A stretch of DNA of 24,669 nt, from positions 1 to 24,669 of the forward strand of contig CADDZH010000079.1 of assembly GCA_902812455.1 (NCBI GenBank), read 5' to 3'. The stretch comes from Chloroflexota bacterium (GTDB lineage: Bacteria > Chloroflexota > Ktedonobacteria > Ktedonobacterales > Ktedonobacteraceae). The position numbers and the translations under genes were made by a program. Each line of letters opens with the position of its first letter. The first letter of the stretch is position 1. The notes under the pieces were generated by a model. That model was not told the origin of the DNA and ran no database searches. It was given only the letters and a program-made list of their open reading frames with translations. Of the stretch, positions 7,370 to 23,963 are shown in pieces.

Positions 7370-8494
7370 ATGAAAATTCGCGACCAGGAAATCTTGCTCC
7401 CCACCAGTATGGTGGGCAACTACCCTAATCCCCGCTGGTGGGACGCCCACTTCGCCCGGTTTTTCAGCGGGGATCAACTGCCGCCCGATGCTTTTGACCG
7501 GGAGGCTCTAGAAGATGTTGTTGTGACTCTGGCGCATGACCAGGAGCTGGCAGGACTGGACATTATTACTGACGCCAGGGTCCAGGGAGATGACTATGCT
7601 GTTCAGGCCCTCTATTATTACTACAAGCGCCTGGGGTATAACCTCAAAGGCGGTTACCTCGGCTTCCCTATTTACAGCCGCCTGCATGCCGCCACGCTGA
7701 CTGAGGAGGTCAAGCGGCACGGTGCGATCATGGTCGAGCAGGCCAAAGCGCTCAAGAGGGCCACAAACAAGCCGACAAAGGTCCAGTACACAGGCGTCCA
7801 GGTTCTGGCTCAGGCTACCAACGACCTCCACTATAAGTCCAGTCGTGACCGGGCCATGGACATCGCCCAGGCCATCAACGAGGACGTTCTGGAAGTGGAT
7901 GCACTGGGCGTCGATTTCATTCAGTTTGACGAGTTTACCTGGCCCTATGGTTTTGAGGACTGGGCCATCGAGGCGTTCAACCGGGCTGTGGAAGGCGTCA
8001 AGCACGCCAAAATCGTCGCCCACATCTGTTGGGGCAACTGGGGCGGCACTCCCGCCTACCTCCCAGACCAGACGGCGCAGCCAGGAGAGGTCTTTGATCT
8101 CACACAGCGCAAGGGGCCGACACCAGGTGACAGCACCTTTGTTATTCCGAAAGCCTACGAGGCTAAGATAGATGTGCTGAACCTGGAGATAGGAGGCCGC
8201 AGACGCGACCTGAGTGGTCTCCACATCCTCAAGCAGCATCCCTTGCCGAAACACCTGCAGTTCTGGGCCGGCGTGATCGATGTGAAGAGCACCATCACCG
8301 AAACCGCTGAGGAGGTGGCTGAGCGCATCCGGCAGATCCTGCAGTACGTACCCGCCGACCAACTCGGCCTCACCACCGACTGCGGCCTGATCCTGCTCCA
8401 GCGCTATATTGCGATTGATAAATTGCATGCACTGGCGGCCGGAACTCAACTCGTCCGTAGTGAACTGGCACGAACGCCGGCAGCGGTCGGTTAA
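7370..8494 (+). CDS. xecA: Epoxyalkane:coenzyme M transferase (EaCoMT)
   Basis: 374 residues from ATG 7370, preceded by GGAGG at 5 bases; an upstream in-frame start at 7295 lacks a ribosome site. The protein belongs to the cobalamin-independent methionine synthase (MetE C-terminal)/UROD-like zinc thiol-transferase fold. Zinc ligands are visible as His218 and Cys220 (AHICWGN) and Cys338 (TTDCGL), matching the H-x-C...C pattern. MetE is about 750 residues with an N-terminal half missing here, whereas EaCoMT of Xanthobacter is about 377. Reaction: opens epoxides with the thiolate of CoM to give 2-hydroxyalkyl-CoM; cytosolic. The assignment is strongly supported by the neighbouring HPCDH, 2-KPCC and CoM-synthesis genes. 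A plain methyltransferase for methionine is the alternative and is unlikely in this context. Confidence 0.88.
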   Translation: MKIRDQEILLPTSMVGNYPNPRWWDAHFARFFSGDQLPPDAFDREALEDVVVTLAHDQELAGLDIITDARVQGDDYAVQALYYYYKRLGYNLKGGYLGFPIYSRLHAATLTEEVKRHGAIMVEQAKALKRATNKPTKVQYTGVQVLAQATNDLHYKSSRDRAMDIAQAINEDVLEVDALGVDFIQFDEFTWPYGFEDWAIEAFNRAVEGVKHAKIVAHICWGNWGGTPAYLPDQTAQPGEVFDLTQRKGPTPGDSTFVIPKAYEAKIDVLNLEIGGRRRDLSGLHILKQHPLPKHLQFWAGVIDVKSTITETAEEVAERIRQILQYVPADQLGLTTDCGLILLQRYIAIDKLHALAAGTQLVRSELARTPAAVG

Positions 8495-8503
8495 TGTATA
8501 TAC

Positions 8504-8576
8504 AGGTCTGATTTATTGCGCCGCTCCTGTCTTGAGCAATCGATGCTATGACAGGCGGGCGCGGTAAATCAGGCCT
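8504..8576 (+). repeat. Large intercistronic stem-loop after xecA
   Basis: The left arm (8504-8531, containing TCTGATTTATTGCGCC) pairs with the right arm (8550-8576, containing GGCGCGGTAAATCAGG) over about 27 bases with a few mismatches, around an 18-base loop. It starts about 10 bases after the xecA stop. No T-tract follows, so it looks more like a transcript-stabilising or processing hairpin, or a decayed mobile repeat, than a simple terminator. Confidence 0.75.
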
Positions 8577-8598
8577 CCTACTCGGCACTTATCCGTCC

Positions 8599-8629
8599 GG
8601 CCATTACCTGTCCCCCGGACAAGGTGGCC
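8599..8629 (+). repeat. Second intercistronic stem-loop
   Basis: GGCCATTACCTGTCC (8599-8613) pairs imperfectly with GGACAAGGTGGCC (8617-8629) around a three-base loop. Together with the preceding hairpin it fills most of the gap between xecA and the zinc-ribbon gene. Confidence 0.5.
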
Positions 8630-8681
8630 GCTGCGCGGCTACCGCTGTGTGGTCAGGCCGGACACAAGGAGAAGATGTGAG

Positions 8682-8879
8682 ATGCCTATTTTGACGCTGA
8701 AATGCCCGGAATGCGGACACATATTTCAGGGCTTGGTCCTTGAAGGAACACGTCCACCAGAAGAATGGGTTTGCTCAAAGTGCGGCAGCCGCAAGGCTGA
8801 AGTAGCCACGGATCAGAAGCCTATCGCTCATCCCTGGGAAGGGGAACACGGTGTGGGCTTGTGTCCGTGTTGTAGCTGA
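8682..8879 (+). CDS. Small zinc-ribbon protein
   Basis: 65 residues from ATG 8682, preceded by AAGGAGAAG. Two CxxC knuckles (Cys8/Cys11 in CPECGH and Cys31/Cys34 in CSKCGS) form a typical zinc ribbon of the FmdB/rubredoxin-like kind. An additional Cys cluster closes the protein (GLCPCCS, Cys61, 63, 64). It lies between two genes of the pathway, 9 bp upstream of xecE, so it is surely co-transcribed. Function is unknown; a metal-handling or assembly role for the zinc enzyme XecA, or electron transfer, would be guesses. Confidence 0.75.
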   Translation: MPILTLKCPECGHIFQGLVLEGTRPPEEWVCSKCGSRKAEVATDQKPIAHPWEGEHGVGLCPCCS

Positions 8880-8888
8880 GGACGAAGT

Positions 8889-9647
8889 ATGCGACTGAAA
8901 GAAAAGGTGGCCATCATCACCGGGGCGGGTTCAGGCATCGGCGAAGTGACGGCGCGGTTGTTTGCCGGCGAGGGCGCGGCGGTGCTGATCGCGGATATCA
9001 ACGCGGCGGCCGCAGAAGACGTGGCTGCATCGATCAACACCCAGGGGGGACGCGCAGCCTGGGAATACGTCGATGTAACCGCTAGCGCCAGCGCCGAGAA
9101 GATGGTGCAGACAGCGCTGAGCCATTTCGGGCGGGTTGATATTCTCTTTAACAATGCTGGCATCGAGGGCTTTGGCACGGTCATTGAGACGGATGAAGCA
9201 AGCTGGGATCGCATTTTTGCGGTACATGTGCGTGGCGCGTATCTCTGCTCGAAGTATGCGGTACAGACGATGATCGATGGCGGGCGCGGCGGCGCCGTTA
9301 TCAATGTCTCATCCGTGGCCGGACTCGTCGGCCTGCAGCATATGTCGGCCTATTGCGCAGCCAAAGGGGCTATTATCAGCCTGACGCGGGCGATGGCGGC
9401 GGATTTCGCTCCTTATGCTATCCGTGTCAATTGCATTGCTCCGGGGACGACCATGACTCCGCTGGGGAAACGCCTGATCGAGAACGATACACCGGAAAGA
9501 CTGGCCCAGCGCCTGAGCCGTTATCCAATGGGACGTTTTGGAGAGCCAGAAGAAATAGCCCGCTCCGTGTTGTTCCTGGCCTCCGATGACAGCTCGTATG
9601 CAACAGGCATGTGCCTGGTAGTCGATGGCGGCCTGACCTGCGTCTAG
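8889..9647 (+). CDS. xecE: 2-(S)-hydroxypropyl-CoM dehydrogenase-like SDR
   Basis: 252-residue classical short-chain dehydrogenase. Glycine-rich NAD motif TGAGSGIG (11-18) with Asp36 after the second strand (favouring NAD), NNAG (88-91), catalytic Ser142, Tyr155 and Lys159 (SAYCAAK). Against my memory of Xanthobacter XecE it shares SVAGLVG, AYCAAKGAI and a C-terminal RL-x-[KR]-YP-[IM]-GRFG block; in that block Arg208 and Arg211 occupy the places of the Arg211/Lys214 pair that binds the CoM sulfonate. Reaction: oxidises S-hydroxypropyl-CoM to 2-ketopropyl-CoM. Oddity: the usual active-site Asn of the SDR tetrad (VNVxG) is His113 here (AVHVRG). Start preceded by GAGGACGAAG. A generic FabG-like SDR is the alternative. 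Confidence 0.8.
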   Translation: MRLKEKVAIITGAGSGIGEVTARLFAGEGAAVLIADINAAAAEDVAASINTQGGRAAWEYVDVTASASAEKMVQTALSHFGRVDILFNNAGIEGFGTVIETDEASWDRIFAVHVRGAYLCSKYAVQTMIDGGRGGAVINVSSVAGLVGLQHMSAYCAAKGAIISLTRAMAADFAPYAIRVNCIAPGTTMTPLGKRLIENDTPERLAQRLSRYPMGRFGEPEEIARSVLFLASDDSSYATGMCLVVDGGLTCV

Positions 9648-9688
9648 CTAGGCTCGTCTCACGCCGCCACACAAGCAGGATGGGAATT

Positions 9689-11113
9689 ATGGAACATTAT
9701 CCATTGTGGATCAACGGTGAACCTTGGGACACAAGTACTCGCCTCGCAGTAACAGACAAAGCAACGGGCACTCCCTGGGCCACCGTAAGCCAGGCCGGAC
9801 CTCGAGAAGTGGACGCGGCGGTCACAGCGGCCAGCCAGGCCTTCGCACATAAACGGCTGAGTGTGATGCAGCGGCACGATATTTTAATGGCTGCTGCTAG
9901 CCTGATTCACGCACAGCGCGACGAACTGGCGCTTATCATGGCCTACGAGGCAGGCAAACCGCTGCGCGAGGCGCGAGCCGAGGTCGAACGCGCGGCTGAT
10001 ACGTTCACCTGGTCAGCCGAAGAAGCCAGGCGTATACACGGGGAGATGGTGCCGCTGGAGGCGACTGCCGGCTCCGAGAATCGCCTGGCCTTTACCCTGC
10101 GCGTTCCCGTTGGCGTTGTGTGCGCCATCACTCCTTTTAATTTCCCGATCAACCTGGTCGCGCATAAAGTCGCCCCAGCGCTGGCAGCAGGGAATGCCGT
10201 CGTGCTCAAACCCGCCTCCTATACCCCGGTGATCGCGGTAAAGCTGTGCGCGATTCTGAAGGAAGCGGGATTGCCTCCCGGTTGGTTGAACCTGGTTGTA
10301 GGACCGGGCGACAGCGTCGGCCATGCGCTGGTGAATGATCAGCGCATCGGCTTCTATACCTTCACCGGCTCCAAAGCTGTTGGAGAAGCCCTCAAAGGGG
10401 CGGTTGGCCTGCGCCGCTGCACACTGGAGCTTGGCTCCAATGCGGCGGTGATCGTTCATGCAGACGCGGATATTGCCAGCGCTGCCACCCAGTGCGCGCT
10501 TAAAGGCTTCTCCTACGCGGGCCAGGTATGCCTCTCGGTGCAGCGCATCCTCGTTCATCAGGTTGTGGCTCAGCCTTTTATGGCAAAGCTGGTCGAGGTA
10601 GCGCAGGGCCTGCGTGTCGGTGATCCTAAAGACGAGCGTAACGACATCGGGCCAATGATCAGCGAAGGCGAAGCGAGGCGGGCTGAGTCGTGGATACAGG
10701 AGGCGGTGGCAGGCGGCGCTCAGTTGCTCACTGGCGGGCAGCGCAGCGGCCCGTTTGTAACTCCGGCGGTGCTGGCGAATGTGCAGCCATCCATGCGCGT
10801 GGTTTGCCAGGAAACATTTGCCCCCATCGTTGTAATTCGGACCTATGAGACATTTGACGAAGCTTTGCAGATGGCTAACGACAGCGAATTCGGTCTGCAG
10901 GCCGGTGTGTTCACAAGCTCGCTGGCAGCGGCTCTAGAGGCCGCCAGAGGCCTGCAGGTTGGCGGCGTGATGATTAACGATACCTCGTTCTATCGCGCCG
11001 GGCAGATGCCTTATGGCGGGGTCAAGCACAGTGGCATGGGCAGAGAGGGACCGCGTTACGCCATTGAAGAAATGACGGATATGCGCCTGGTTGTGTTTAA
11101 TCCACAGCCCTAA
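9689..11113 (+). CDS. NAD(P)-dependent aldehyde dehydrogenase
   Basis: 474 residues from ATG 9689 (AGGA 8 bases upstream; ATG 9680 is a close alternative). The full ALDH fold is present: Asn151 in TPFNFP, the cofactor motif FTGSKAVG (225-232), Glu247 in ELGSN, catalytic Cys281 in GQVCLS, ETFAP, and the C-terminal MPYGGVKHSGMGREG. It resembles succinate-semialdehyde or lactaldehyde-type enzymes; ELGSN instead of ELGGN marks a subgroup. It stands between the two hydroxyalkyl-CoM dehydrogenases. In the propylene pathway no aldehyde step is needed. It could oxidise an aldehyde formed from terminal (for example hydroxyethyl-CoM-derived) substrates or detoxify epoxide-derived aldehydes. Substrate is not readable from sequence. 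Confidence 0.9.
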   Translation: MEHYPLWINGEPWDTSTRLAVTDKATGTPWATVSQAGPREVDAAVTAASQAFAHKRLSVMQRHDILMAAASLIHAQRDELALIMAYEAGKPLREARAEVERAADTFTWSAEEARRIHGEMVPLEATAGSENRLAFTLRVPVGVVCAITPFNFPINLVAHKVAPALAAGNAVVLKPASYTPVIAVKLCAILKEAGLPPGWLNLVVGPGDSVGHALVNDQRIGFYTFTGSKAVGEALKGAVGLRRCTLELGSNAAVIVHADADIASAATQCALKGFSYAGQVCLSVQRILVHQVVAQPFMAKLVEVAQGLRVGDPKDERNDIGPMISEGEARRAESWIQEAVAGGAQLLTGGQRSGPFVTPAVLANVQPSMRVVCQETFAPIVVIRTYETFDEALQMANDSEFGLQAGVFTSSLAAALEAARGLQVGGVMINDTSFYRAGQMPYGGVKHSGMGREGPRYAIEEMTDMRLVVFNPQP

Positions 11114-11192
11114 ACATACAAGACATTGTAGTGCGTTCTCGATAGGATTCAAGCGGGTAGAAGCGAAAGAGTGTTGAAAGAGGCCACAAACA

Positions 11193-11951
11193 ATGCGCTT
11201 TGCCAATAAAATAGCCCTGGTGACCGGCGCCGGCTCCGGTATCGGGCGCGGCATTGCTCGCCGCTTTGCTGCTGAAGGCGCTTCCCTGGTGCTCAGCGAT
11301 ATGGCCGAGGCCGGGCTGCGTGAAACGATAGCCTTGATCACAGAAGCGGCTGGGCGGGTTATTCCTGTTGTGGGTGATGTCGCGCTGCGGACAGACGCAG
11401 AACGCATGGTAGAAGCGGCTGTTACCGCCTGGGGCAGGCTGGATATCGTTGTCAACAATGCAGGAATAAGCGGCTCGCGCCAGGCCACGCTTGCGCACCT
11501 CACACCGGACGAAGAGTGGGAACGGGTAATGGCGGTCAACGTAGGAGGCGTCTTCCGCGTTGCCAGCGCGGCTATCCGGCAGATGCTGACCCAGGGGCAG
11601 GGCACCATTATCAATATCGCGTCGGCCGCCGGGTTCGTGCCGTTTCCGGCGCGAGCAGTATATAACGCCTCAAAAGGGGCCGTGATCTCGTTCACACGAG
11701 CGCTGGCGGTCGATTATGCGCCAGATCATATCCGGGTCAATGCGATCTGCCCAGGCATGGTGGAAACGAACATGACGCGCTGGCGGCTGGAGATCCCGGA
11801 ACTGCGCCAGCAGGTGCTGGATATGACGCCTTGGGGGCGCATCGGCACCCCGGAAGATATCGCGGCAGCGGCCGTTTATCTGGCTTCTGACGAGGCCGAT
11901 TTTGTCACCGGGCACATGCTGGTCATTGATGGCGGCTGGATCATCAAATGA
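11193..11951 (+). CDS. xecD: 2-(R)-hydroxypropyl-CoM dehydrogenase-like SDR
   Basis: 252-residue short-chain dehydrogenase with TGAGSGIG (11-18), Asp36, NNAG, VNVGG with the tetrad Asn116, Ser144, Tyr157 and Lys161. It carries both arginines known to hold the CoM sulfonate in the R-enzyme of Xanthobacter (Arg152 and Arg196 there): Arg154 in PARAVY and Arg198 in MTRWRLEIPELR, each offset by two like the catalytic residues. The stretch CPGMVETNMTRWRL closely follows my memory of XecD. Reaction: R-hydroxypropyl-CoM + NAD to 2-ketopropyl-CoM. Having an R- and an S-type enzyme in one cluster is the signature of the epoxide carboxylation pathway. Start preceded by AAGAGG. Confidence 0.85.
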   Translation: MRFANKIALVTGAGSGIGRGIARRFAAEGASLVLSDMAEAGLRETIALITEAAGRVIPVVGDVALRTDAERMVEAAVTAWGRLDIVVNNAGISGSRQATLAHLTPDEEWERVMAVNVGGVFRVASAAIRQMLTQGQGTIINIASAAGFVPFPARAVYNASKGAVISFTRALAVDYAPDHIRVNAICPGMVETNMTRWRLEIPELRQQVLDMTPWGRIGTPEDIAAAAVYLASDEADFVTGHMLVIDGGWIIK

Positions 11952-11994
11952 TGCGGACAAGCGCCGGGCGAGGGCAGAGAAGGAGGAGTGAGAT

Positions 11995-12936
11995 ATGCCG
12001 ATCTTCCCTGGAGATGATAAAAGAATTTCGCTGGCCGAAGCTGCATCTATGGTGCAGGATGGGATGACGCTGGCCATTGGCGGCGGCCTGGCATGGCGGG
12101 AACCAATGGCCTTCCTGCGTGAACTCATCCGACAGGGGCGGTGCAACCTGCGCGTGATAGGAACGGCGCACGGTGTCGATATCGACATGCTGTGCGGCGC
12201 GGGCGCCATTGGCGTGGTGGAGGAATCATACGTTGGCTTCGAGACCGATTTCGGGATGGCGCCAAACTTTCGCCGCGCCTGCCAAAGCGGGCAGGTGCAA
12301 GTACATGATACCTGCTGCCATACCATTCTCCAGCAGTTGCGCGCCGCCGAATTCGGCGTTCCTTTCTTACCGGTTAGAAGCGTGCAGGGCACTGATTTTT
12401 TGCAACTGCACCCCGAATACAAGACTATGACCTGCCCGTTCACGGGATTGCCGCTGGTCCTGGTTCCGGCACTTGCGCCTGATGTCGCCATCGTCCATGC
12501 TCATTATGCAGATGCGCAGGGCAACTTGAAAATTTTCCCGCCGCTAGTTGCGGACCTCTTTTTCATTCGCGCCTCCCAGCACGTCATTGCCACGGTTGAA
12601 AAACTCGTGACAACAGAAGAACTGCGGGCCATGGAGCCGAACGTACCCTATTTCTGGGTAGAGGCGGTCGTCGAGGTGCCCTATGGAGCGCATCCCACCT
12701 CGTGCTATCCCTTCTATGCCTATGACCGCGAGCACTTAGCGGAATATCAGCGTGCAGCAGAGGCCGGGCCGGAGGCGTTTGCCGGCGACTATCTTGCCAG
12801 GTACGTGTTCGCCAGTCACGACGACTATCTCACGCGCATTGGCGGGAAGGCAAAACGCCAGCTCCTCGAAAGCTGGCGAGAGGGAGACGATGCCTGGCGC
12901 AGGCTCTTTACGGCGCCGGAGGGGGCTATCGCATGA
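11995..12936 (+). CDS. CoA-transferase family I, alpha subunit (GctA-like)
   Basis: 313 residues, ATG preceded by AGAAGGAGG. The fold and motifs are those of the A subunit of glutaconate/3-oxoacid CoA-transferases: early DGMTLAIGGGLAWREPM loop, then LRVIGTAHGVDIDMLCG, and the central DVAIVHAHYADAQGN motif typical of the family. It overlaps the next gene by 4 bp (ATGA), so the two are translationally coupled and form the usual alpha/beta enzyme. In this cluster the likely substrate is the acid released by 2-KPCC (acetoacetate from propylene oxide) or another short acid of the pathway; exact substrate and CoA donor are inference. It is closer to the GctA/IpdA type than to SCOT. Confidence 0.85.
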   Translation: MPIFPGDDKRISLAEAASMVQDGMTLAIGGGLAWREPMAFLRELIRQGRCNLRVIGTAHGVDIDMLCGAGAIGVVEESYVGFETDFGMAPNFRRACQSGQVQVHDTCCHTILQQLRAAEFGVPFLPVRSVQGTDFLQLHPEYKTMTCPFTGLPLVLVPALAPDVAIVHAHYADAQGNLKIFPPLVADLFFIRASQHVIATVEKLVTTEELRAMEPNVPYFWVEAVVEVPYGAHPTSCYPFYAYDREHLAEYQRAAEAGPEAFAGDYLARYVFASHDDYLTRIGGKAKRQLLESWREGDDAWRRLFTAPEGAIA

Positions 12937-13799
12937 GCGCTACAACGACTACCTATGCCACGCTTGCCGAGGTGATGATCTACCAGCTGGCACGCACGAT
13001 CAAAGATGGCGAACTGGTCTTTCACGGCTATGCTTCGCCGGTGCCGACGCTGGCGATGCTCTTAGCCAAGCGTACGCATGCGCGGCACATGATTCATGTC
13101 GAGGGAGCTACCTATAGTATCAACCCGGAGCCACCGTTTTTGCCGCCCACTTCAAATGATTGGGTGCTGGAACGCGGCTCCGTGATGGCCTTGGGGATCA
13201 GCGATCTGTTTGATATCGCGGCGCGCGGTGATATGGGGCGTATGTTTCTCTCCGGGGTGCAGATCGACCGCTACGGCAACCTGAACGTGACAGCGATAGG
13301 TGACCCTCGTTCCCCCAAGGTCAAGCTGCCGGGGAGCGGCGGCGGCTGCAATCTTTCTGCCGACGTGCAACATCTCACCATCTGGACCACCGGGCATCGC
13401 GCACCGAAAAACAAGGCGGGGAAACGGCTCTTCCGCTTTGTAGAGCATATTGATTTTGTCTCCTCTGTCGGTCATGTCACACGCGATGGCGTTCCGCGCA
13501 CAGCGCTAGGCCTGCGCGGAGGAGGGCCGGAGTGGATCGTGACCGAACTGGGGGCCTTCGACTTTGACCCGCTAACACATGTCCTGCGCCTGCGTGCCCT
13601 CTACCCGGACACACGTGTGCAGGACGTACTGGACAATACCGAATTTGAGCCGGTGATTGCGCCGGATGTGGGCATTGTGCCGCTGCCCAAACCTGAACAT
13701 CTTGAAATCATCCGGCGCTTCGATCCGCTATGCACGCACATGCGTGAATTCAGATCGTCTGACGTGTCCCGGCGCTTCGATCTCCCGGACAGTCACTAG
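12933..13799 (+). CDS. CoA-transferase family I, beta subunit (GctB-like)
   Basis: 288 residues; start ATG overlaps the alpha subunit stop. The probable catalytic Glu57 lies in HVEGATY, matching the position of the thioester-forming Glu of glutaconate CoA-transferase beta (about residue 54). Other family features: DIAARGDMGRMFLSGVQIDRYGNLNVT, then GSGGGCNLSADV in the oxyanion/CoA region and GPEWIVTELGAFDF near the C-terminus. It activates an acid made by the pathway by transferring CoA from another thioester. It ends 16 bp before xecC. Confidence 0.85.
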   Translation: MSATTTTYATLAEVMIYQLARTIKDGELVFHGYASPVPTLAMLLAKRTHARHMIHVEGATYSINPEPPFLPPTSNDWVLERGSVMALGISDLFDIAARGDMGRMFLSGVQIDRYGNLNVTAIGDPRSPKVKLPGSGGGCNLSADVQHLTIWTTGHRAPKNKAGKRLFRFVEHIDFVSSVGHVTRDGVPRTALGLRGGGPEWIVTELGAFDFDPLTHVLRLRALYPDTRVQDVLDNTEFEPVIAPDVGIVPLPKPEHLEIIRRFDPLCTHMREFRSSDVSRRFDLPDSH

Positions 13800-13815
13800 C
13801 AGGAGGTTTTTTTAC

Positions 13816-15384
13816 GTGGATATCACCCTGACTCCAACAACCAACAGGCAGTGGTTTGGTCTGGTGGAAGAGTATTTACAGAAAAGTGAGCCAATCATCA
13901 ATGTTCACCGCGATGACTCTAGAAAGTTCGATGCCATTTTCATCGGCGGCGGCGCGGGCGGGCGCTTCGGCTCAAGCTACTTGCGTGCAATGGGTGGACG
14001 TCAACTCATCATTGATCGCTGGCCGTTCCTGGGCGGCAGTTGCCCTCACCAAGCGTGTGTGCCGCACCATCTGTTTTCTGAAGCGGCTCGCGAACTCGAC
14101 CTGATGCGCTGGTTCTCCGGCAAACTCTGGTTCCCCGACGCCACCAACCTGCGTGCCTCGATTCTCGAGGTAGTTAACCTTTTCAAGGCTGGGAGATCAA
14201 CCGCGCACGCCTTCATGAATTGGCAGTCTAAAGAGCAGCTTGACATCGAGTACATCCTGAACGCTGAGGCGACCGTCATTGACGACCACACGGTAGAAGC
14301 AGCGGGAGAGCGTTTCCAGGCGGATAATCTCGTGCTGGGAATTGGCGCTGCGCCTGAGCGGCCGGCTATTCCCGGTATGAACCTGCATGGCATCTATGAC
14401 TTCGCGGCCTTCATCGAGGAATTGGACTTCGAGCCGCAGCGCTGTGTCGTCATCGGCGGGTCGAAGACGGGCATCGAGTACGGTTCGTTCTTTCAGGCGG
14501 CTGGCTGCCCGACAACGATTGTTGCCCGCAAGCCGCTCATGCGCACATCCAGCCTGCATCATGTTGACGAAGACTTACGCTCATATGTCATCGATGGAAT
14601 GCGCAAACGCGGCATCCAGATCATCGAGGGGAGCGAACCGGTTGAGATCAAGGGCGACGGGGATGGCAATGTTCAGGCTGTGATCATCCGCGACATGCGC
14701 ACCGGCGCTGAGCAGACGCTGCCATGTGACTTCGTCTTCCTGGCGACGGGCGAACGCCCCCGCTCGGAACATTTCCAGAAAATTCTGGGCGTCGCTGTGG
14801 GCGAGAAGGGCGAAATTCTTGTCGATAAGCATATGCGGACCAACGTTCCCCACGTCTACGCGATCGGCGACCTGATCGGCCCCCCAATGGAGATGTTCAA
14901 GGCCCGCAAAGGCGGGGTGACAGCCGCGCGCAATATTATGGGTGATCCGTATGAGTTCGACTGGACAGATTACCCCGACTTCCTACATTCGACGTACGAG
15001 ATAAGCTGGGTGGGCCTCTCGGAAGAGGAGGCCAGGCAGCGCTACAGGCACGTGACCATCATCCAGATGCCGCCCAAGGGAGTGCCATACGAGGATATTC
15101 CGCTCCCCTGCGCAGAGGGTACCATGCTCTATGCCTTTATGTACCCGGAGCTTTCCGGTTTCCAGAAGGCGGTCATTGACAGCGATACGCGGCGCCTGCT
15201 CGGCTTCCATCATGTTGGTTTCGGAGCCAAGGACGCCTTCCAGTATCTCGATCACCTGCTGCGACGGCCAGAAGGCATGACCATCGACGAGCTGGGCAGC
15301 ATGAACGAGCTGTTCCTCAATCCAGAGCATTTTATCCAGCTCTGCCGCCTGCGTGCAGGTTCACCAGATCTGCGTGACCTGTAG
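13816..15384 (+). CDS. xecC: NADPH:2-ketopropyl-CoM carboxylase/oxidoreductase (2-KPCC)
   Basis: 522 residues from GTG 13816 (AGGAGG 9 bases upstream); Xanthobacter 2-KPCC has 523. A member of the disulfide oxidoreductase family: FAD motif IFIGGGAGGRFGSSY (41-55), redox pair Cys76/Cys81 in SCPHQACVPHH, NADPH motif VVIGGSKTG, FAD motif VYAIGDLIG. Residues diagnostic of 2-KPCC are all present: Phe500 and His505 in ELFLNPEHF, replacing the His-Glu pair of other family members, Arg50 and Arg364 (sulfonate contacts, equivalent to Arg56 and Arg365), and Met134 (equivalent to Met140). Reaction: reductive cleavage of 2-ketopropyl-CoM and carboxylation to acetoacetate, freeing CoM. Mercuric or dihydrolipoamide reductase, the likely automatic labels, would not have this Phe/His pair. 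Confidence 0.93.
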   Translation: MDITLTPTTNRQWFGLVEEYLQKSEPIINVHRDDSRKFDAIFIGGGAGGRFGSSYLRAMGGRQLIIDRWPFLGGSCPHQACVPHHLFSEAARELDLMRWFSGKLWFPDATNLRASILEVVNLFKAGRSTAHAFMNWQSKEQLDIEYILNAEATVIDDHTVEAAGERFQADNLVLGIGAAPERPAIPGMNLHGIYDFAAFIEELDFEPQRCVVIGGSKTGIEYGSFFQAAGCPTTIVARKPLMRTSSLHHVDEDLRSYVIDGMRKRGIQIIEGSEPVEIKGDGDGNVQAVIIRDMRTGAEQTLPCDFVFLATGERPRSEHFQKILGVAVGEKGEILVDKHMRTNVPHVYAIGDLIGPPMEMFKARKGGVTAARNIMGDPYEFDWTDYPDFLHSTYEISWVGLSEEEARQRYRHVTIIQMPPKGVPYEDIPLPCAEGTMLYAFMYPELSGFQKAVIDSDTRRLLGFHHVGFGAKDAFQYLDHLLRRPEGMTIDELGSMNELFLNPEHFIQLCRLRAGSPDLRDL

Positions 15385-15444
15385 TCATTCGCCTCTGTAG
15401 GCCAGAAGGCGAGCTGCGGGGGTATAAAGAAGTCCTGTGCTTGC

Positions 15445-15466
15445 CGTCGATGCTTCCGCATCGACG
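15445..15466 (+). repeat. Stem-loop with 9-bp perfect stem and TTCC tetraloop
   Basis: CGTCGATGC (15445-15453), loop TTCC, GCATCGACG (15458-15466). It lies between xecC and the next gene, about 25 bases before that gene's ribosome site. With no T-tract, an attenuator or mRNA processing/stability element is more likely than a full terminator; it may set apart the epoxide half from the CoM-synthesis half. Confidence 0.7.
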
Positions 15467-15493
15467 CAGAGCTGAAAAAGAAGGAGGGTAGGT

Positions 15494-16450: not shown

Positions 16451-16463
16451 AAGGAGATGCACT

Positions 16464-17351: not shown

Positions 17352-17369
17352 ATAGAAGGGAATACGCCC

Positions 17370-18941
17370 ATGGCACACTCCGATGGCTCATCTCCCCTGG
17401 AGAGCCAATCCATGACGCCTACTCAATCCTCGTCCGTTCTGGGTGTAGGCAGCAGGCTGGCGGCAGGTCCGGCTGAAGTGCTGGTAAAGACGGCGTTCGC
17501 ACGCGAACTGGCAGATCAACAGGCGCTCTTTACGGGTATGAGCCTGGCAGACCTTGCATACACGGTCATGCTGATCGAGTCAAGGGTAATACCGCCGACT
17601 GAGGGTGCCTCGCTTCTGTCGGCCCTGCTTGCCCTGCATACGTCCCCTGCCGAGTTCACGCCGAAAGCTGAACTGGGCGATCTCTATACCAATCGTGAAG
17701 CCTGGTTAGCGGCGCATACTCCTGCCGTCGGCTGGCTTGGTGCCGGGCGTGCACGGCGGGAGGCAACCACTACCGGCTATCGCATCCTCGTGCGCTCGTC
17801 TCTCCTCACCTTTGCCGATGCTTTAATTGGGGCCGGTAACGCACTCGTTGAGCGAGCAGAAGAACATCGCGCCTCGCTCATGGCCGACTATACCTATCTG
17901 CAGCCTGCACAGCCAACGACTTTCGGGCACTACCTGCTGGGATTCGCCTACCCGCTCCTGCGCGACCTCGAGCGCCTGCGGGCGCTCTACGGCCGTGCCA
18001 ATCTCAGCCCTGCCGGCTGCGGCAGCGTCAACGGCTCACGCATACCGCAGGATCGTTGGAGGCTCGCCGAGCTGCTCGGGTTCGACGGGCTGGCCCACCA
18101 CGCGCGTGATGCCATGTGGCAGCCCGATGGCTCCAGCGAGACGCTGTCCACCATTGTGATGGCGCTCGTCAACCTGGATCGGCTGGCGGAAGACCTGCAA
18201 ATCTTCGCCACCGCCGAATTTGCACTGGTAGAACTGGCCGATAGGCATTCACGGGCCAGCGTCATCATGCCACAGAAAAAGAACCCGTACGCGCTCAACT
18301 ATATACGCGGGGCAACGAATGAAGTGAGCGGTACGCTGACAACCATAATCGCGCTGGGGCGTACCCCTTCGGGACAGGTTGACAACCGCGTGTTTGCCTA
18401 TGGAGACGTGCCGCGTGCCCTGGAACTGGCCAGCGGTGCCACGAGCCTGATGGCGGATGTACTCAAAGGGCTGCATTTCAACACATCCCTGGCCGAGGTA
18501 CGGCTGGCCGATGGGTTCGCTACCGCCACCGATCTGGCAGAGACAATCACCCTTGAAACCGGGCTGGATTTTCGCACGGCACATCGCATTGTCGGACGCC
18601 TGGTACGCGAGGCGGCACAGGTCAGCCGCCCCCTGCGGGAACTTAGCGGCGAAGACCTGGACGCGGCTGCACAGGCCATCATCCAGCGCCCACTGTATCT
18701 CTCAAGCGAAGCATTGGCGCAGGCACTGAACCCTGCAACCGCAGTTGCTGCACGCCAGGGCACAGGCGGAGCGGCGCCGGAGCCTTTTGCAGCTATGGTG
18801 AGTGAGTGCCGCGCGACACTCTCGGCGCATGCAGCCTGGCAGCAAGAGATGGCAGCGCGTATCAGGAGGGCTGAAGAGGCTCTGCTGCACCGTGCACACG
18901 AACTAGCTGGAGATGGAGAGACTATATGCCAGTCCACATGA
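17370..18941 (+). CDS. xcbC: Argininosuccinate lyase-like AFS enzyme (XcbC-like, CoM synthesis)
   Basis: 523 residues; ATG preceded by AGAAGGGAA. Aspartase/fumarase superfamily with argininosuccinate lyase-like order: ELGDLYTNREAW and GAGRARREATTTG where ASL has its HTGRSRND region, DYTYLQPAQPTTFGHYLL for the second conserved block, and the signature ASVIMPQKKNP (296-306) with the catalytic Ser297. Key change: the active-site His of the Y-T-H-L-Q motif of ASL is Tyr176. This and the altered HTGRSRND segment argue against true argininosuccinate lyase. By position next to comA it corresponds to XcbC1, which eliminates phosphate from phosphosulfolactate to give sulfoacrylate in Xanthobacter. Which of the two AFS genes here does that is not certain. 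It ends overlapping the following gene. Confidence 0.8.
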   Translation: MAHSDGSSPLESQSMTPTQSSSVLGVGSRLAAGPAEVLVKTAFARELADQQALFTGMSLADLAYTVMLIESRVIPPTEGASLLSALLALHTSPAEFTPKAELGDLYTNREAWLAAHTPAVGWLGAGRARREATTTGYRILVRSSLLTFADALIGAGNALVERAEEHRASLMADYTYLQPAQPTTFGHYLLGFAYPLLRDLERLRALYGRANLSPAGCGSVNGSRIPQDRWRLAELLGFDGLAHHARDAMWQPDGSSETLSTIVMALVNLDRLAEDLQIFATAEFALVELADRHSRASVIMPQKKNPYALNYIRGATNEVSGTLTTIIALGRTPSGQVDNRVFAYGDVPRALELASGATSLMADVLKGLHFNTSLAEVRLADGFATATDLAETITLETGLDFRTAHRIVGRLVREAAQVSRPLRELSGEDLDAAAQAIIQRPLYLSSEALAQALNPATAVAARQGTGGAAPEPFAAMVSECRATLSAHAAWQQEMAARIRRAEEALLHRAHELAGDGETICQST

Positions 18942-20299
18942 TCGATTCACTGATTTACCAGAACTCCTGGGGCACGCCTGAAATGCGTGCCATCTTTGAT
19001 GATGTACCTCGGACACGCTCGTGGCTGGAAATCCTGGCAGTGCTGGCAGAGACACAGGGCGAGTTTGGCCTCATTCCCCAGGATGCGGCGCGGGAGGTAG
19101 CCACGATCTGCCGCAGCGTTGAACTCGATACAGCTTTCTTTGAAGAAGTACGCGCAAGCTTTGAAGCAACCAACCATTCTACGCTTGGCCTGATCCGCGC
19201 ACTCCAGCGGCGCTGCCCTGGCGATAGCGGAGAGTGGGTCTATTACGGGGCAACGGTGCAGGATATCACCGACACCTGGACCGCACTGGCGCTGCGACAG
19301 GTGCGCGAGATTGTGCAACGAGAACTGAAGGAAATCGAGGCGAATCTGGCCCGGTTGGCGGCCGAGCAGCGTGACACCGTCATGGGAGGGCGCACACATG
19401 GACAACTCGGCCTGCCCATCACCTTCGGCTTCAAGGCTGCTGGATGGGCTATGGAAGTGCAGCGGCACCGCCGGCGGCTGGCTGAACTGGCACCGCGCAT
19501 GGATGTCGGGCAGCTGGCAGGCGGCGTCGGCAGCCTCTCATCGCTTGGCCCGCGGGCGCTAGAACTGCAAAAGCGTTTCCTGGCAAGGCTGGAGTTGGGC
19601 GCGCCGGCCATTTCATGGACAACTGCCCGCGATGGGCTTGCCGAGTGGTTCAATGTCCTGGCCCTGATCGCTGCCACCGGCGATAAGATCGGTCAGGAAA
19701 TCTACAATTTGCAGCGCCCGGAGATCGGCGAGGTGAGCGAGGGATTTGTGGCAGGTACGGTTGGCAGTATCACCATGCCGCATAAACGCAATCCTGAAAT
19801 TGCCGAACACCTGGGCACGCTTGCCCGCGTTGTCCGTCATAATGCGGCGATGCAGGCGGAAAGCCTGGTACACGATCATGAACGTGATGGGCGCTCCTGG
19901 AAAGCCGAATGGGCGAGCGTAGCCGAAACCTGTCTGGCGACCGGCAAACTCCTCTCGCTGCTGCGCACACTCACAGCGAACCTGGTGGTGCATCCCGAGC
20001 GCATGCTGGCCAATCTGGAGGCAACGGGCGGCTTCGTGCTCTCTGAGGCGGTCATGCTGGCCCTGGCAGCACACATCGGCAAACAGAGCGCCCACACCCT
20101 CGTCTATGAAACGGCAATAGCCGCGCATGCTCAAGGACGTGGACTCAAGGAAGCCATCCTGGATAATCCACAGATTTGCGCTCATCTTTCACGTGAGGAA
20201 ATCGAAGCGCTCTTCGATTACAAACAGCATACCGGTCAGTGCGGGGCGATGGTCGATCAGGTCCTCGTAGAGCTGAGGAACGGCGATGAACTCAAGTGA
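18926..20299 (+). CDS. xcbD: Adenylosuccinate lyase/carboxymuconate cycloisomerase-like AFS enzyme (XcbD-like)
   Basis: 457 residues from ATG 18926 (GGAGATGGAGAG just upstream); ATG 18938, which forms an ATGA overlap with the previous stop, is an alternative start. Superfamily motifs: GGRTHGQLGLPITFGFK (154-170) with His158 retained, and the signature GSITMPHKRNPE (279-290) with Ser280 and Lys286. The family includes adenylosuccinate lyase, 3-carboxy-cis,cis-muconate cycloisomerase and similar enzymes. Position as second AFS member after comA matches XcbD1 of the bacterial CoM pathway. The published pathway goes on from sulfoacrylate by decarboxylation, thiolation and reduction; I cannot assign the exact step to this protein from sequence. 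Overlaps the PLP-enzyme gene by 14 bp. Confidence 0.8.
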   Translation: MPVHMIDSLIYQNSWGTPEMRAIFDDVPRTRSWLEILAVLAETQGEFGLIPQDAAREVATICRSVELDTAFFEEVRASFEATNHSTLGLIRALQRRCPGDSGEWVYYGATVQDITDTWTALALRQVREIVQRELKEIEANLARLAAEQRDTVMGGRTHGQLGLPITFGFKAAGWAMEVQRHRRRLAELAPRMDVGQLAGGVGSLSSLGPRALELQKRFLARLELGAPAISWTTARDGLAEWFNVLALIAATGDKIGQEIYNLQRPEIGEVSEGFVAGTVGSITMPHKRNPEIAEHLGTLARVVRHNAAMQAESLVHDHERDGRSWKAEWASVAETCLATGKLLSLLRTLTANLVVHPERMLANLEATGGFVLSEAVMLALAAHIGKQSAHTLVYETAIAAHAQGRGLKEAILDNPQICAHLSREEIEALFDYKQHTGQCGAMVDQVLVELRNGDELK

Positions 20300-21302
20300 A
20301 CTGGATAAACTGGGCCTCTCGACAATGCCGCGTGTCCGCCTGGCATGCTTGCCAACACCGTTGATGGAAGCCCAAAGGCTGGCGGCGAAAATTGGTGGCC
20401 CGAGACTGTGGATCAAGCGCGACGATCTGACAGGCTTCGGATTCGGTGGGAATAAGATACGAGGACTGGAGTTCCTGCTGGCAGATGCCCTGGCGCAGGG
20501 AGCTGATACCCTTGTCACGGGCGCGGGGCCACAATCGAACTATGTGCGTGCAACGGCCGGGGCGGCCACCCACGCAGGTCTGGCGATGGTGGCAATCTAC
20601 TCCGGCACACGACCACTGAAAGTTGAGGGCAATTATCGCTTGACTTGCCTGCTAGGTGCGGAGGTACGCTTTACCGGCAGTCCAGATCGGGCTTCGGTGG
20701 ACGGAGCGATTGAAGCGACAGCACGGGAATTACTTTCGGTTGGGCGACGACCCTATGCTATCCCACGCGGAGGAGCCTGTGTCCTCGGCACACTTGGCTA
20801 TGTCCAGGCCGCATATGAACTGGCCGAACAATGTGCTGCTCAGCGTATCGTGCCGGATGCTCTAGTGCTGGCAACCGGTTCCTGTGGCACTCAGGCCGGG
20901 TTACTGGCCGGTATGCGGGCGCTAGGACTGCCGTGGCGGATTGAGGGCTTTACCGTCAGCAGACCGGCGGAGGAAGCGCAGAGGCGAGTATATGCCTTCG
21001 CACAAGCTGCGCTGAGCCGATTGGGGGTGGCCCAGATCATCTCTCCGCAAGACGTGATTGTTCACGGCGGATTCCTTGGTCCTGGCTATGGTGTACCGAC
21101 AGCGGAAGGTGCCGCAGCTATCCGATTGGCCGCACGCTGCGAGGGCATCTTCCTCGATCCGACATACACAGGAAAGGCATTAGCCGGGTTAATGGCACAC
21201 AGCCGCGCCGGGCGCTTCCGGCGCGATGAGACAGTTGTGTTCTTGCATACCGGCGGCGAACCGGCATTGTTCGTTGGAGAAGGGAGCTGGCTCAATGACT
21301 AA
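20286..21302 (+). CDS. xcbE: D-cysteine desulfhydrase-like PLP enzyme (XcbE-like)
   Basis: 338 residues. Fold type II PLP enzyme of the ACC deaminase/D-cysteine desulfhydrase family: LWIKRDDLTG (41-50), Schiff-base Lys57 in GGNKIRG, phosphate loop TGSCGTQAGL (197-206), and HTGGEPALF near the C-terminus. Two changes in places that are normally invariant: SN-H becomes SNY (Tyr86) and the GSGGT loop has Cys200. These suggest new chemistry. By position it corresponds to XcbE1, the PLP member of the bacterial CoM pathway, and may take part in sulfur (thiol) introduction. The start overlaps the previous gene by 14 bp and the stop overlaps the next start by 8 bp, so the run of genes is translationally coupled. 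Ordinary D-cysteine desulfhydrase is the alternative. Confidence 0.82.
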   Translation: MNSSELDKLGLSTMPRVRLACLPTPLMEAQRLAAKIGGPRLWIKRDDLTGFGFGGNKIRGLEFLLADALAQGADTLVTGAGPQSNYVRATAGAATHAGLAMVAIYSGTRPLKVEGNYRLTCLLGAEVRFTGSPDRASVDGAIEATARELLSVGRRPYAIPRGGACVLGTLGYVQAAYELAEQCAAQRIVPDALVLATGSCGTQAGLLAGMRALGLPWRIEGFTVSRPAEEAQRRVYAFAQAALSRLGVAQIISPQDVIVHGGFLGPGYGVPTAEGAAAIRLAARCEGIFLDPTYTGKALAGLMAHSRAGRFRRDETVVFLHTGGEPALFVGEGSWLND

Positions 21303-23430
21303 TTGGGGCGAGGCCGCATTCAACCCAAGAAGCGTAGCGCTCATAGGCGCTTCAGCGAAGTCGGGCAAGCTGGGATACATCCTTATGCGAAACCTGCTCG
21401 AGGGTTATCCTGGTGCCCTCTTTCCGATCAATCCGGCAGAAGCAGAGATCATGGGCTACCGGGCATATGCACGTCTGCAGGATGTGCCTGATCCAGTAGA
21501 CCTGGCGGTGATTGCTCTCCCACCAGATGCCTGCCCTGGGGCAGTGCGCGACTGCACTGAAGTAGGCGTGCGCGTCGCACTGGTCCTGAGTGGCGGATTT
21601 GCCGAAGTCGGACCGGAGGGCCGTGCCCTCCAGGAGGCAATGGTCGAGGCAGCCAGGGGCGTACGCGTGATCGGGCCAAACTGCTTTGGACTGTATAACT
21701 GCAACCTCGGCCTGAACGCCTCCATGGGCCTCGGTTTGCCACCCAAGGGAGGCCACATCTCGCTCGTCACGCAAAGTGGCGCTTACGGCATGGCGATCTT
21801 CGGCCTGGCGCAAGAACGCCGCCTGCGCTTCGCCAAAATCCTCTCACACGGCAATAAAGCGGATCTAACCGACCACGAGATCCTAGACTATTTTGCACAC
21901 GACGATGAGACCCAGGTTCTCTGCCTGTTCCTGGAATCTGTGAGTGATGGGCGAGCCTTTTACGAGGCGCTAGAACGGGCAGCCCGACGCAAGCCTGTCG
22001 TTATCGCCAAAACCGGGCGCTCGACTGCTGGCCGGCGTGCTGCGGCGTCACACACTGCCGCATTGACTGGCGACGTGACTGCATTCATCACCGCAGTGCG
22101 CCAAGCGGGAGCCATACTGGCGGAGAGCGGGCTGGAGATGGTAGATATTGCCGAGGGGCTGAGCCGCCAACCCCTGCCGCCAGGTCACCGCGTTGGCATC
22201 ATCACCAACTCGGGGGGTACAGGCGTCGAACTGGCCGATCTCTGCGAGCGATGCGGGCTGAGCGTACCTGAGCTGCCAGAGGCAACCCAGGCACGCATCT
22301 CTCCATTGATTCCAGCCTACGCAAGCCCACGTAACCCGGTGGATGTGACCCCCCTGTGGGCTCGCTTTCCAACAATGTACGGCGGCAGCATCGAAGCCCT
22401 GTACGAGTGCAGCGAGGTGGACATTATCATGCCCATCCTTTTGCAACGCTCGGCTTTGATGCGTGAGAACGTTGAGGCGGTGCGCGACGCAGTTCTCCGC
22501 TGTCAGCAGGAGCGGGGGATTGCCAAACCCACCTACGTCTGTTGGGTGGCCGGACGCGAAAGCACTGAAAACCGGGCAATCCTGCAGGAAGCGAGCCTTC
22601 CGGTCTACGATTGGCCAGAGCGCACAGCACGTGCGGCAGCCGCAATTGCGGCCTATGCCAGGGGTCGTCGCAACAACACGATGCGGCACACGGTTCTGGA
22701 ATCACCACCAGCAGGAGCACGGGAACAAGCTGCCGCAATCATTGCCACTGTACGCGCACAGGGACGCACACTGCTCCTTGAAAGTGAGGTCAAGGCGCTC
22801 ATGGCAGCCTATGGCGCAAGCATACCTCGTGAGACATTGTGTACGAGCCGAACTGCAGCCCAGACAGCAGCACAAGAACTCGGCAGACCATGCGTGCTGA
22901 AAATTGTTTCACCGGACATTAGCCACAAATCGGATGTCGGCGGCGTGCGTATCGGCGTACCGCCAACAGAAGTCGACGCAGCCTTTGAGGAAATGCTGGC
23001 GACAGTGCGCATAGTACAGCCGAATGCCCACCTGCTGGGCATAAGCGTCCAGGAACGGGTGCGTGGCCAGGAGGTGATTATCGGTGGGCTGCGCGATTGC
23101 GAGTTTGGGCCGCTCGTGATGTTCGGCCTGGGAGGTGTGTTTGTCGAAATATTGCGCGATAGCGCCTACCGGCTGATACCTACCACTACCGACGAACTGC
23201 GTGCGATGATTCGCGAAGTGCGAGGTTACCCTCTGCTCGTTGGTGTACGCAGGCAACCCGGTGCCGACCTGGAAGCCATTACGCGCACCCTGCAGGCAGC
23301 AGCATGGCTGCTCGCTGCCTTTCCTGAAATTGTCGAACTCGACCTGAATCCCGTTTTTGCTGGGCCAGAGGGAGCCGTCGTCGCCGACGGGCGGGCAGTA
23401 TTGGCCGGAGAAGCGGGGGAGAAGGGCTAG
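21295..23430 (+). CDS. Acyl-CoA synthetase, NDP-forming (fused alpha/beta)
   Basis: 711 residues from ATG 21295 (preceded by GGGAG); an upstream GTG frame to 21226 lies inside the previous gene and is unlikely. Domain order: CoA-binding Rossmann domain (LIGASAKSGKLGY, about 16-28), GPNCFGLYN (127-135), succinyl-CoA ligase-like domain with the phospho-His253 in ASHTAALTGD, then an ATP-grasp domain from about residue 495 (CVLKIVSPDISHKSDVGGVR, GGLRDCEFGPLVMFGLGG). It makes or consumes an acyl-CoA with ADP or GDP. In this cluster it could activate acetate, acetoacetate or another product acid, or recover ATP from acyl-CoA. The substrate is not readable. It overlaps the PLP gene by 8 bp. Confidence 0.88.
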   Translation: MTNWGEAAFNPRSVALIGASAKSGKLGYILMRNLLEGYPGALFPINPAEAEIMGYRAYARLQDVPDPVDLAVIALPPDACPGAVRDCTEVGVRVALVLSGGFAEVGPEGRALQEAMVEAARGVRVIGPNCFGLYNCNLGLNASMGLGLPPKGGHISLVTQSGAYGMAIFGLAQERRLRFAKILSHGNKADLTDHEILDYFAHDDETQVLCLFLESVSDGRAFYEALERAARRKPVVIAKTGRSTAGRRAAASHTAALTGDVTAFITAVRQAGAILAESGLEMVDIAEGLSRQPLPPGHRVGIITNSGGTGVELADLCERCGLSVPELPEATQARISPLIPAYASPRNPVDVTPLWARFPTMYGGSIEALYECSEVDIIMPILLQRSALMRENVEAVRDAVLRCQQERGIAKPTYVCWVAGRESTENRAILQEASLPVYDWPERTARAAAAIAAYARGRRNNTMRHTVLESPPAGAREQAAAIIATVRAQGRTLLLESEVKALMAAYGASIPRETLCTSRTAAQTAAQELGRPCVLKIVSPDISHKSDVGGVRIGVPPTEVDAAFEEMLATVRIVQPNAHLLGISVQERVRGQEVIIGGLRDCEFGPLVMFGLGGVFVEILRDSAYRLIPTTTDELRAMIREVRGYPLLVGVRRQPGADLEAITRTLQAAAWLLAAFPEIVELDLNPVFAGPEGAVVADGRAVLAGEAGEKG

Positions 23431-23522
23431 CAGAGCACCCGTAAGTGAGCTTCCTCTCCCTGGTAAAGGCCGCACCACATGACAGCAGGGAGATCGGGAA
23501 GCAAGGAGAAAAGGAAAACGCC

Positions 23523-23963
23523 ATGGCGAATGACATGACCGTGCGAGCAAGGTTAGAAACAGGGATGCGTTTTGATGTCGAGACGGGTTCGGGGCACCAC
23601 ATTTTGCTTGACGCGGCTGAACATAACGGGGGGGAGAACGCGGGACCTCAACCGATGGAGATGCTCCTGGTGGGTCTGGCAAGCTGCGCCGCGATGGACA
23701 TCCTTTCGATCCTGCGTAAGAAGCGCCAGGACATCACTGCCTACGAAGTACGTGTCTGGGGTGGGCGTACCGAGGAATACCCCAGGGTGTTTGTGGAGAT
23801 CACCCTCGAGCACATCTTTACTGGCCACAATATTCATCCACAAGCGGTGGAACGTGCCATTCAACTGACCGAGGAACGCTACTGTGGGGCAAGCGCAATG
23901 CTTGGCAAAACGGCCCGCATAAGTCATACCTTTCGCATACTTAAGGAGGGAGAGAGGCCTTAA
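23523..23963 (+). CDS. OsmC/Ohr-family peroxiredoxin
   Basis: 146 residues from ATG 23523, with AAGGAGAAAAGG upstream; the longer GTG frame from 23445 adds a non-conserved leader. OsmC family motifs: GPQPMEMLLVGLASCAAMDI (41-60) with Cys55, and EERYCGASAML with Cys121, the two redox cysteines. The usual family length is about 140. It detoxifies organic hydroperoxides using thiols. As the last gene of the cluster it may protect against oxidants from epoxide or alkene metabolism, or act on CoM-type thiols; the latter is speculation. A gap of 92 bp separates it from the synthetase gene. Confidence 0.85.
   Translation: MANDMTVRARLETGMRFDVETGSGHHILLDAAEHNGGENAGPQPMEMLLVGLASCAAMDILSILRKKRQDITAYEVRVWGGRTEEYPRVFVEITLEHIFTGHNIHPQAVERAIQLTEERYCGASAMLGKTARISHTFRILKEGERP

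Follow-up and report, generated by a model that had tools for sequence, protein, structure and literature searches.

In PMC6440738, gene clusters for propylene combine R- and S-hydroxypropyl-coenzyme M (CoM) dehydrogenases (HPCDHs) with epoxyalkane:CoM transferase (EaCoMT) and 2-ketopropyl-CoM oxidoreductase/carboxylase (2-KPCC), without coenzyme A (CoA) transferase or acyl-CoA synthetase genes. Clusters for ethylene are described there as having one short-chain dehydrogenase/reductase (SDR) together with CoA-transferase and synthetase genes. Few steps of these pathways have been experimentally confirmed, according to PMC11507031. Here we describe a run of 16 plus-strand genes (6452–23963), from a MEDS regulator through an OsmC-family protein, in contig CADDZH010000079.1 of a Chloroflexota bacterium (Ktedonobacteraceae). 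The whole stretch of 24,669 nucleotides that was analyzed is called the window. The window carries both propylene-type and ethylene-type marks, as do other listed clusters. Judging from the predicted proteins, the run is very probably an epoxyalkane operon that depends on CoM and is suited to the degradation of small, toxic epoxides, from a member of the Ktedonobacterales able to synthesize CoM itself. Its genes are as follows.

6452–7216, plus strand: regulator with MEDS and helix-turn-helix domains (PF14417, PF12728), at the same place in the Ktedonobacterales contig L005
7370–8494, plus strand: predicted XecA, epoxyalkane:CoM transferase of the type of Xanthobacter autotrophicus Py2 (identity, tree, residues)
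8682–8879, plus strand: zinc ribbon of 65 amino acids (CxxC...CxxC...CPCC), near the Zn_ribbon_8 cut-off and in the Py2 position
8889–9647, plus strand: SDR1, predicted dehydrogenase of the S-HPCDH (XecE) type (4gh5 match; tree with Py2 XecE)
9689–11113, plus strand: aldehyde dehydrogenase (ALDH), classical PF00171 (520 bits), of a subgroup common to contigs L005 and L068
11193–11951, plus strand: SDR2, predicted dehydrogenase of the R-HPCDH (XecD) type (2cfc match; tree with Py2 XecD)
11995–12936, plus strand: CoA-transferase-fold subunit A (PF01144, 97 bits; 5mzw_A match)
12933–13799, plus strand: CoA-transferase-fold subunit B, catalytic residue uncertain (PF01144, 34 bits; GATY motif)
13816–15384, plus strand: predicted XecC, 2-KPCC homologue (1mo9 match, residues, tree)
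15494–16450, plus strand: XcbA (DUF7714), CoM biosynthesis (NF052538, PF24830)
16464–17351, plus strand: XcbB/ComA, phosphosulfolactate synthase (TIGR03849)
17370–18941, plus strand: XcbC, argininosuccinate-lyase-like CoM biosynthesis enzyme (NF052535)
18926–20299, plus strand: XcbD, adenylosuccinate-lyase-like CoM biosynthesis enzyme (NF052536)
20286–21302, plus strand: XcbE, pyridoxal phosphate (PLP) enzyme of CoM biosynthesis (NF052537)
21295–23430, plus strand: NDP-forming acyl-CoA synthetase (PF13607, PF13549), with a homologue in Nocardioides JS614
23523–23963, plus strand: OsmC-family protein (PF02566, 61 bits)

The xec/xcb locus of Py2 (pXAUT01, CP000782, L003) shares with the window xecA, the zinc ribbon, xecC, the two HPCDH SDRs, homologues of xcbA to xcbE, and the MEDS regulator. 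It differs in the alkene monooxygenase upstream. A CoA-transferase pair, an acyl-CoA synthetase, and OsmC were all absent from the 41.5-kb Py2 stretch, and the aldehyde dehydrogenase annotated in Py2 shows no match to the window ALDH. In Nocardioides JS614 and Mycolicibacterium NBB4 (three stretches taken together: L001, L002 and L004), an XecC homologue (62–67% identity), SDRs, CoA-transferase A/B, the synthetase, CoM genes, and MEDS are shared with the window. However, their EtnE is only 46–49% identical to the window XecA, and the genes lie in several divergent groups. One mark of the ethene (etn) type, the CoA-transferase and synthetase genes, is present in the window (11995–13799 and 21295–23430), while the other, an actinobacterial EtnE beside an alkene monooxygenase, was not found there. 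The 13-gene cluster of Methylohalobius crimeensis, as described in PMC11507031, resembles the window by its gene descriptions: EaCoMT, hydroxypropyl-CoM dehydrogenase, CoA-transferase A/B, CoM genes, acyl-CoA synthetase, sulfoacetaldehyde/aldehyde dehydrogenase, and MEDS. It differs in its single listed HPCDH, its 2,4-dienoyl-CoA reductase-like gene, and its methanotroph host. According to that source, the sulfoacetaldehyde dehydrogenase is not similar to XcbA, 11 of the 13 cluster proteins rose with ethylene, and Chloroflexota are among the top BLAST hits.

Xec-type enzymes and CoM biosynthesis genes

The window XecA shares 75% identity with Py2 XecA across 97% of the query sequence. Based on the XecA tree (38 rows from 36 loci and the window, including 7 that were flagged as long), it belongs to a 20-row clade with Py2 XecA (support 100/100), outside the actinobacterial EtnE clade. 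H217, C219, and C337 (numbering from 0), which we take to be the zinc ligands, are conserved in at least 95% of 40 aligned sequences.

The best solved match of SDR1 is 4gh5, presumably an S-HPCDH (216 bits; the next match scores 204), and that of SDR2 is 2cfc, an R-HPCDH (218 bits; next 179). In the SDR tree, SDR1 groups with Py2 XecE (starred clade of 23 rows, 97/94) and SDR2 with Py2 XecD (starred clade of 18 rows, 99/98). All 26 background SDR rows, from two genomes, fall outside both clades. This tree was made from 21 of the 84 loci, the window, and 30 background loci; filtering by length and identity left 67 rows (3 flagged as long), and background rows identical to cluster rows were dropped. 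In the alignments, SDR2 keeps R152 and R196 of XecD, and SDR1 keeps R211 and Y215 of XecE, with K214 replaced by R. We assume these five positions to be the sulfonate residues.

The solved Xanthobacter 2-KPCC (1mo9) matches XecC with 621 bits, and the best other disulfide reductase with 115 bits. It keeps R56, C82, H84, C87, M140, M361, R365, F501, and H506 (Py2 numbering), the nine residues that in our understanding define 2-KPCC, including the Cys pair, the CoM-site Arg pair, and the Phe/His pair. The window and L005 form a lineage inside the 60-row group that holds Py2 XecC. The tree has 64 rows, 7 of them flagged as long; rows shorter than 400 residues were dropped, and 19 loci (near-copies or short contigs) were left out by hand beforehand. 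Since its outgroup consists of four long-branched rows, the scores of 621 versus 115 are the main evidence for the split from other disulfide reductases.

The original prediction had named XecA, XecE, XecD, and XecC types here and regarded trees outside the Xec clades as evidence to the contrary. XecA, both SDRs, and XecC all fall inside the Py2 Xec clades, and the solved-structure matches and kept residues agree with the trees. These results show that the predicted products of the window are XecA, S-type and R-type hydroxyalkyl-CoM dehydrogenases, and a 2-KPCC-type XecC.

The xcb genes were called with curated NCBIfam cut-offs, and all of them exceed these: 313 bits for ComA/XcbB (TIGR03849, cut-off 280), 684 for XcbC (NF052535, cut-off 575), 703 for XcbD (NF052536, cut-off 600), 469 for XcbE (NF052537, cut-off 450), and 454 for XcbA (NF052538, cut-off 150; PF24830, 301 bits). 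The XcbE protein also scores 326 bits against the CuyA model, under the cut-off of 450. The earlier assignment of comA, two aspartase/fumarase members, and a PLP enzyme stands for all four genes; the count of four does not, because XcbA at 15494–16450 had been overlooked and the CoM set is five genes. The reaction steps of ComA and XcbC are taken from PMC8727900. Under the epoxyalkane-operon reading, the host would very likely make its own CoM via XcbA–E.

Several neighbouring genes overlap by a few bases, and all others are less than 200 bases apart, with the ALDH start taken at ATG 9689 and the XecC start at GTG 13816. These small gaps and overlaps indicate that 6452–23963 is likely transcribed as one operon, or as the regulator gene plus one transcript. 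All 16 genes recur in identical order and strand on the Ktedonobacterales contig L005 with 64–84% protein identity, so the cluster is not a chance array. The genes listed in the original prediction are all present on the plus strand within 7370–23963, except that the MEDS regulator lies just ahead of that interval. No repeats were found between the regulator and xecA (7190–7400), and no sharp base-composition step that would point to a mobile-element origin was found.

Gene combinations in related clusters

The loci compared here (L005–L084) are a sample from a genome scan; where a contig end truncates a locus, the genes beyond it are scored as absent. Thirty-nine listed loci, the window included, have Py2-type xecA and xecC. 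Both CoA-transferase-fold subunits are seen in 30 of them, both SDR types in 18, and both SDR types together with the CoA-transferase-like pair in 16. Seven (the window, L005, L016, L026, L034, L037, and L049) add all five xcb genes. The gene combination is not new. The extra genes had been thought to make the cluster unusual, but homologues of MEDS and the zinc ribbon are already at the Py2 xec locus, and CoA-transferases, the synthetase, and MEDS occur on the JS614/NBB4 plasmids and in the M. crimeensis cluster (PMC11507031); the 16 loci above speak against that claim too.

Clusters of a Rhodocyclaceae (L034), a Rhodoferax (L037), and a Hyphomicrobiales (L049) bacterium share with the window, all on one strand, xecA, the zinc ribbon, xecC, both SDRs, the CoA-transferase-like pair, all five xcb genes, and the synthetase (cut by the contig end in L049). 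They differ in that xecC directly follows xecA and the zinc ribbon, and in lacking OsmC and an ALDH of the window subgroup. Their identity to the window genes is 43–73%.

The ALDH subgroup is 77–78% identical in L068 and L005 and 48% in L011, with no further match among the 84 listed loci (tblastn, E 1e-5). The window ALDH is 24% identical to the JS614 ALDH over a part only. The ALDH subgroup and OsmC each occur in 2 of the 39 clusters, those with OsmC being L005 and the window. Only these two genes look particular to Ktedonobacterales. The acyl-CoA synthetase (157 bits to PF13607 and 233 to PF13549) is 49% identical to its JS614 homologue. The regulator, with 141 bits to PF14417 (MEDS) and 50 bits to PF12728 (HTH_17), is a probable inducer-sensing activator.

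The zinc ribbon occupies the position of Py2 Xaut_4866 and scores 33 bits against Zn_ribbon_8, just short of the cut-off of 34. Among the listed loci, it lies within 2.5 kb of 29 of 40 Py2-type xecA genes (several of the 11 misses are near contig ends) and of none of six etnE-type genes. C7, C10, C30, C33, C60, C62, and C63 (counted from 0) are conserved in an alignment of 32 rows, some without the C-terminal part. One guess is that it delivers zinc to XecA.

For the CoA-transferase-fold pair, the best structures are 5mzw_A (134 bits, then 1poi_A with 128) for subunit A and 5n00_B (82 bits, then 1poi_B with 80) for subunit B. Glutaconate CoA-transferase (1poi) is thus second-best for both, by a narrow margin for the window sequences. 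With a profile of the subunit-B family, 5mzw–5n03 score 125.5–127.4 bits versus 105.3 for 1poi; we take 5mzw–5n03 to be the AibAB decarboxylase. At the VEGATY site of subunit B, E is seen in the window, L005, L001, L002, and L004, and A in L034, L049, and L063. This Glu presumably lies near the catalytic place. The alignment behind this reading included one row running far outside the gene and was later rebuilt without it.

Automatic annotation was expected to hide the pathway. This applies to XecA, XecC, and the SDRs, for which no Xec-named model is among the best 25 NCBIfam models per protein, but not to the xcb genes, which NCBIfam names; some JGI homologues of XecC are also already called 2-oxopropyl-CoM reductase.

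Proposed pathway and alternatives

It can be proposed that XecA joins a C2 or C3 epoxide to CoM, and that SDR1 and SDR2 would oxidize the two enantiomers, or the achiral 2-hydroxyethyl-CoM. XecC would then cleave the C–S bond and carboxylate; the C3 adduct would yield acetoacetate, and the C2 adduct probably malonate semialdehyde. The ALDH may oxidize malonate semialdehyde to malonate, and the synthetase and the CoA-transferase-like pair may take the acids to acyl-CoA (malonyl-CoA in the C2 case). The inducer would probably be sensed by the MEDS regulator. The malonate semialdehyde route is a proposed ethene route in PMC8727900. As the window has both propylene and ethylene marks, the simplest reading is one route serving C2 and C3. 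A fuller scheme seems quite unlikely as a whole: one Ktedonobacterales operon for C2 and C3 epoxides, with XecC carboxylating both 2-oxoethyl-CoM and 2-oxopropyl-CoM, the ALDH and synthetase making malonyl-CoA, the pair acting as a decarboxylase to yield acetyl-CoA, and a host without dedicated alkene monooxygenase that scavenges epoxides and makes CoM only for this.

Several points weigh against an epoxyalkane operon of this kind. ALDH and OsmC are missing from 37 of the 39 listed clusters. In the SDR tree, whose bootstrap had not settled, the XecE group has two unlinked SDRs from the L005 genome (L124 and L132) as its sister. CoA-transferase activity of the pair is doubtful, since the Glu near the likely catalytic place is not conserved. 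No alkene monooxygenase is among the 20 window proteins scanned with Pfam, and monooxygenase probes found none in the window or L005. PF02332 and PF02461 were unmatched in both related metagenome-assembled genomes (MAGs), those of L005 and L068, whose completeness is unstated and in which other oxygenase families were not searched; as controls, 3/3 and 2/2 chosen positive genomes matched for PF02332 and PF02461, respectively.

The monooxygenase result bears on a second reading, in which the host clears epoxides formed elsewhere or by co-oxidation and does not grow on them. This detoxification is a real but less probable alternative. M. crimeensis probably detoxifies with such a cluster and without a dedicated alkene monooxygenase (PMC11507031), and the genomes of L033, L034, and L049, which have like clusters, were without PF02332 in a search round where the controls also gave no match. 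However, the search covered PF02332 and PF02461 but not cytochrome P450, AlkB, or flavin-type oxygenases, and the two MAGs may lack part of their genomes; PF02332 does occur in the genomes of L018, L046, and L048, which carry like clusters or XecC. Given the unstated completeness and the two families covered, the host may grow on alkenes or may only clear epoxides.

A reductive route via carboxymethyl-CoM has been proposed for ethene. In this case, the ALDH would oxidize 2-oxoethyl-CoM to carboxymethyl-CoM, the synthetase or the pair would convert this into a CoA thioester, and XecC would only cleave the thioester reductively to acetyl-CoA, with no carboxylation. The ALDH, the CoA-transferase-like pair, and the synthetase do share the operon with XecC. 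XecC homologues are on the plasmids of JS614 and NBB4, users of ethylene or vinyl chloride according to PMC6440738 and PMC8727900. All 17 listed loci of presumed methanotrophs (by title: L033, L036, L050–L059, L061–L063, L072, and L074) show one SDR type in the stretch examined. Still, this route is rather unlikely for the window: both stereospecific SDR types are present, which is needless for an achiral C2 adduct, and XecC keeps Phe501/His506, which we assume to favour carboxylation over protonation, while one methanotroph (L063) has Tyr at 506.

That the MetE-like, SDR, and disulfide reductase proteins are lookalikes unrelated to epoxides is highly improbable: the top NCBIfam names are generic (methionine synthase, SDR family oxidoreductase/glucose 1-dehydrogenase, glutathione and mercuric reductase) and the general SDR subfamily model NF005559 is over its cut-off, but none of 8 MetE-like models and none of the best 25 of 48 reductase models reach theirs, three trees and the residues put the proteins in Xec groups, and five CoM genes are linked.

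Host and related genes in other genomes

The closest named contigs, among the matches listed, are from Ktedonobacterales MAGs: L005 (XecC 84% identical) and L068, where XecC is 87% identical over 191 residues at the contig end and the gene order is partly kept. The Chloroflexota background guessed from the sequence is borne out by these operon matches. A Chloroflexota host is a good inference, as L005 has the same 16 genes in order and strand. XcbC does not mark CoM synthesis cleanly in Chloroflexota (382 of 400 sampled genomes match, 1 over the cut-off), and XcbA was used instead. XcbA is above the cut-off in 3 of the 400 genomes, and in 1 of 47 genomes of the order, that of L005. The L068 genome, with its cluster cut by contig ends, shows no XcbA. 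Also in the L068 genome, a divergent three-gene set and a second MetE-like gene lie between MEDS and xecA (L116, 11108–15974); judged from its first residues only, the set resembles 2-oxoacid dehydrogenase.

In two other Chloroflexota genomes (G188 and G239; L098–L101), all five xcb genes have homologues that lie near one another, with XcbA over the cut-off, XcbC and XcbE below, and a disulfide-reductase-like gene nearby. No XecA match was found in them, and the XecC matches are at most 100 bits. These bacteria may use CoM for something else, or the MAGs may be incomplete.

A LarA-like gene (4438–5922, minus strand) was considered as an operon member and rejected. It is divergent, and no homologue of it is seen ahead of MEDS in L005 or in the 8 kb preceding that stretch; its best match in the L005 and L068 genomes is 21 bits. 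Its relatives reach 92% identity at full length, mostly from jgi, lgn, and ena sources. Four of 400 Chloroflexota genomes match it at E 1e-40, with at most 190 bits, and no xecC match is in the stretches taken around them. Among the genomes searched, it is closest to the LarA-like genes beside anaerobic XecC homologues (37–41% identity, 217–253 bits). Two more minus-strand genes were seen in the window: 1322–1744 matches a part of the APH-type phosphotransferase family (PF01636, 53 bits), far under resistance-model cut-offs, and 379–1179 has P22-antirepressor N-terminal and ORF6C domains.

Distant XecC homologues (35–47% identity) occur in MAGs of Peptococcaceae, Syntrophaceae, deltaproteobacteria, and Dehalococcoidia. 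In 4/4 cases, they are directly beside a LarA-like gene on the same strand (L066 9839–12837, L071 3340–6396, L073 9087–12218, and L080 2136–4315). In L066, L071, and L073, the XecC homologue has retained the Cys pair, the two CoM-site Arg, and the Phe/His pair, but not H84; L080 is cut. L066 continues with genes for an AIRC-domain and a Ni-insertion protein, which we take to be LarB- and LarC-like, and in L071 a beta-keto acid cleavage enzyme is just before the pair. These XecC–LarA pairs are possibly an unrecognized anaerobic carboxylase system.

No title on such an operon in Ktedonobacterales was found, with most subscription journals outside the search. In two papers on Ktedonobacteria, epoxide and CoM terms occur for epoxide hydrolase and methyl-CoM reductase. 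Other bacteria are known to have this system; the novelty lies in its occurrence, accompanied by two additional genes, in a branch of Chloroflexota that has been little studied. CoM synthesis and epoxide carboxylation would thereby be carried into a phylum where XcbA is rare. The CoA-transferase-like pair of doubtful activity and the zinc ribbon beside Py2-type xecA are conserved, unexplained partners. The window offers a compact single-operon set for asking how the C2 and C3 branches join.

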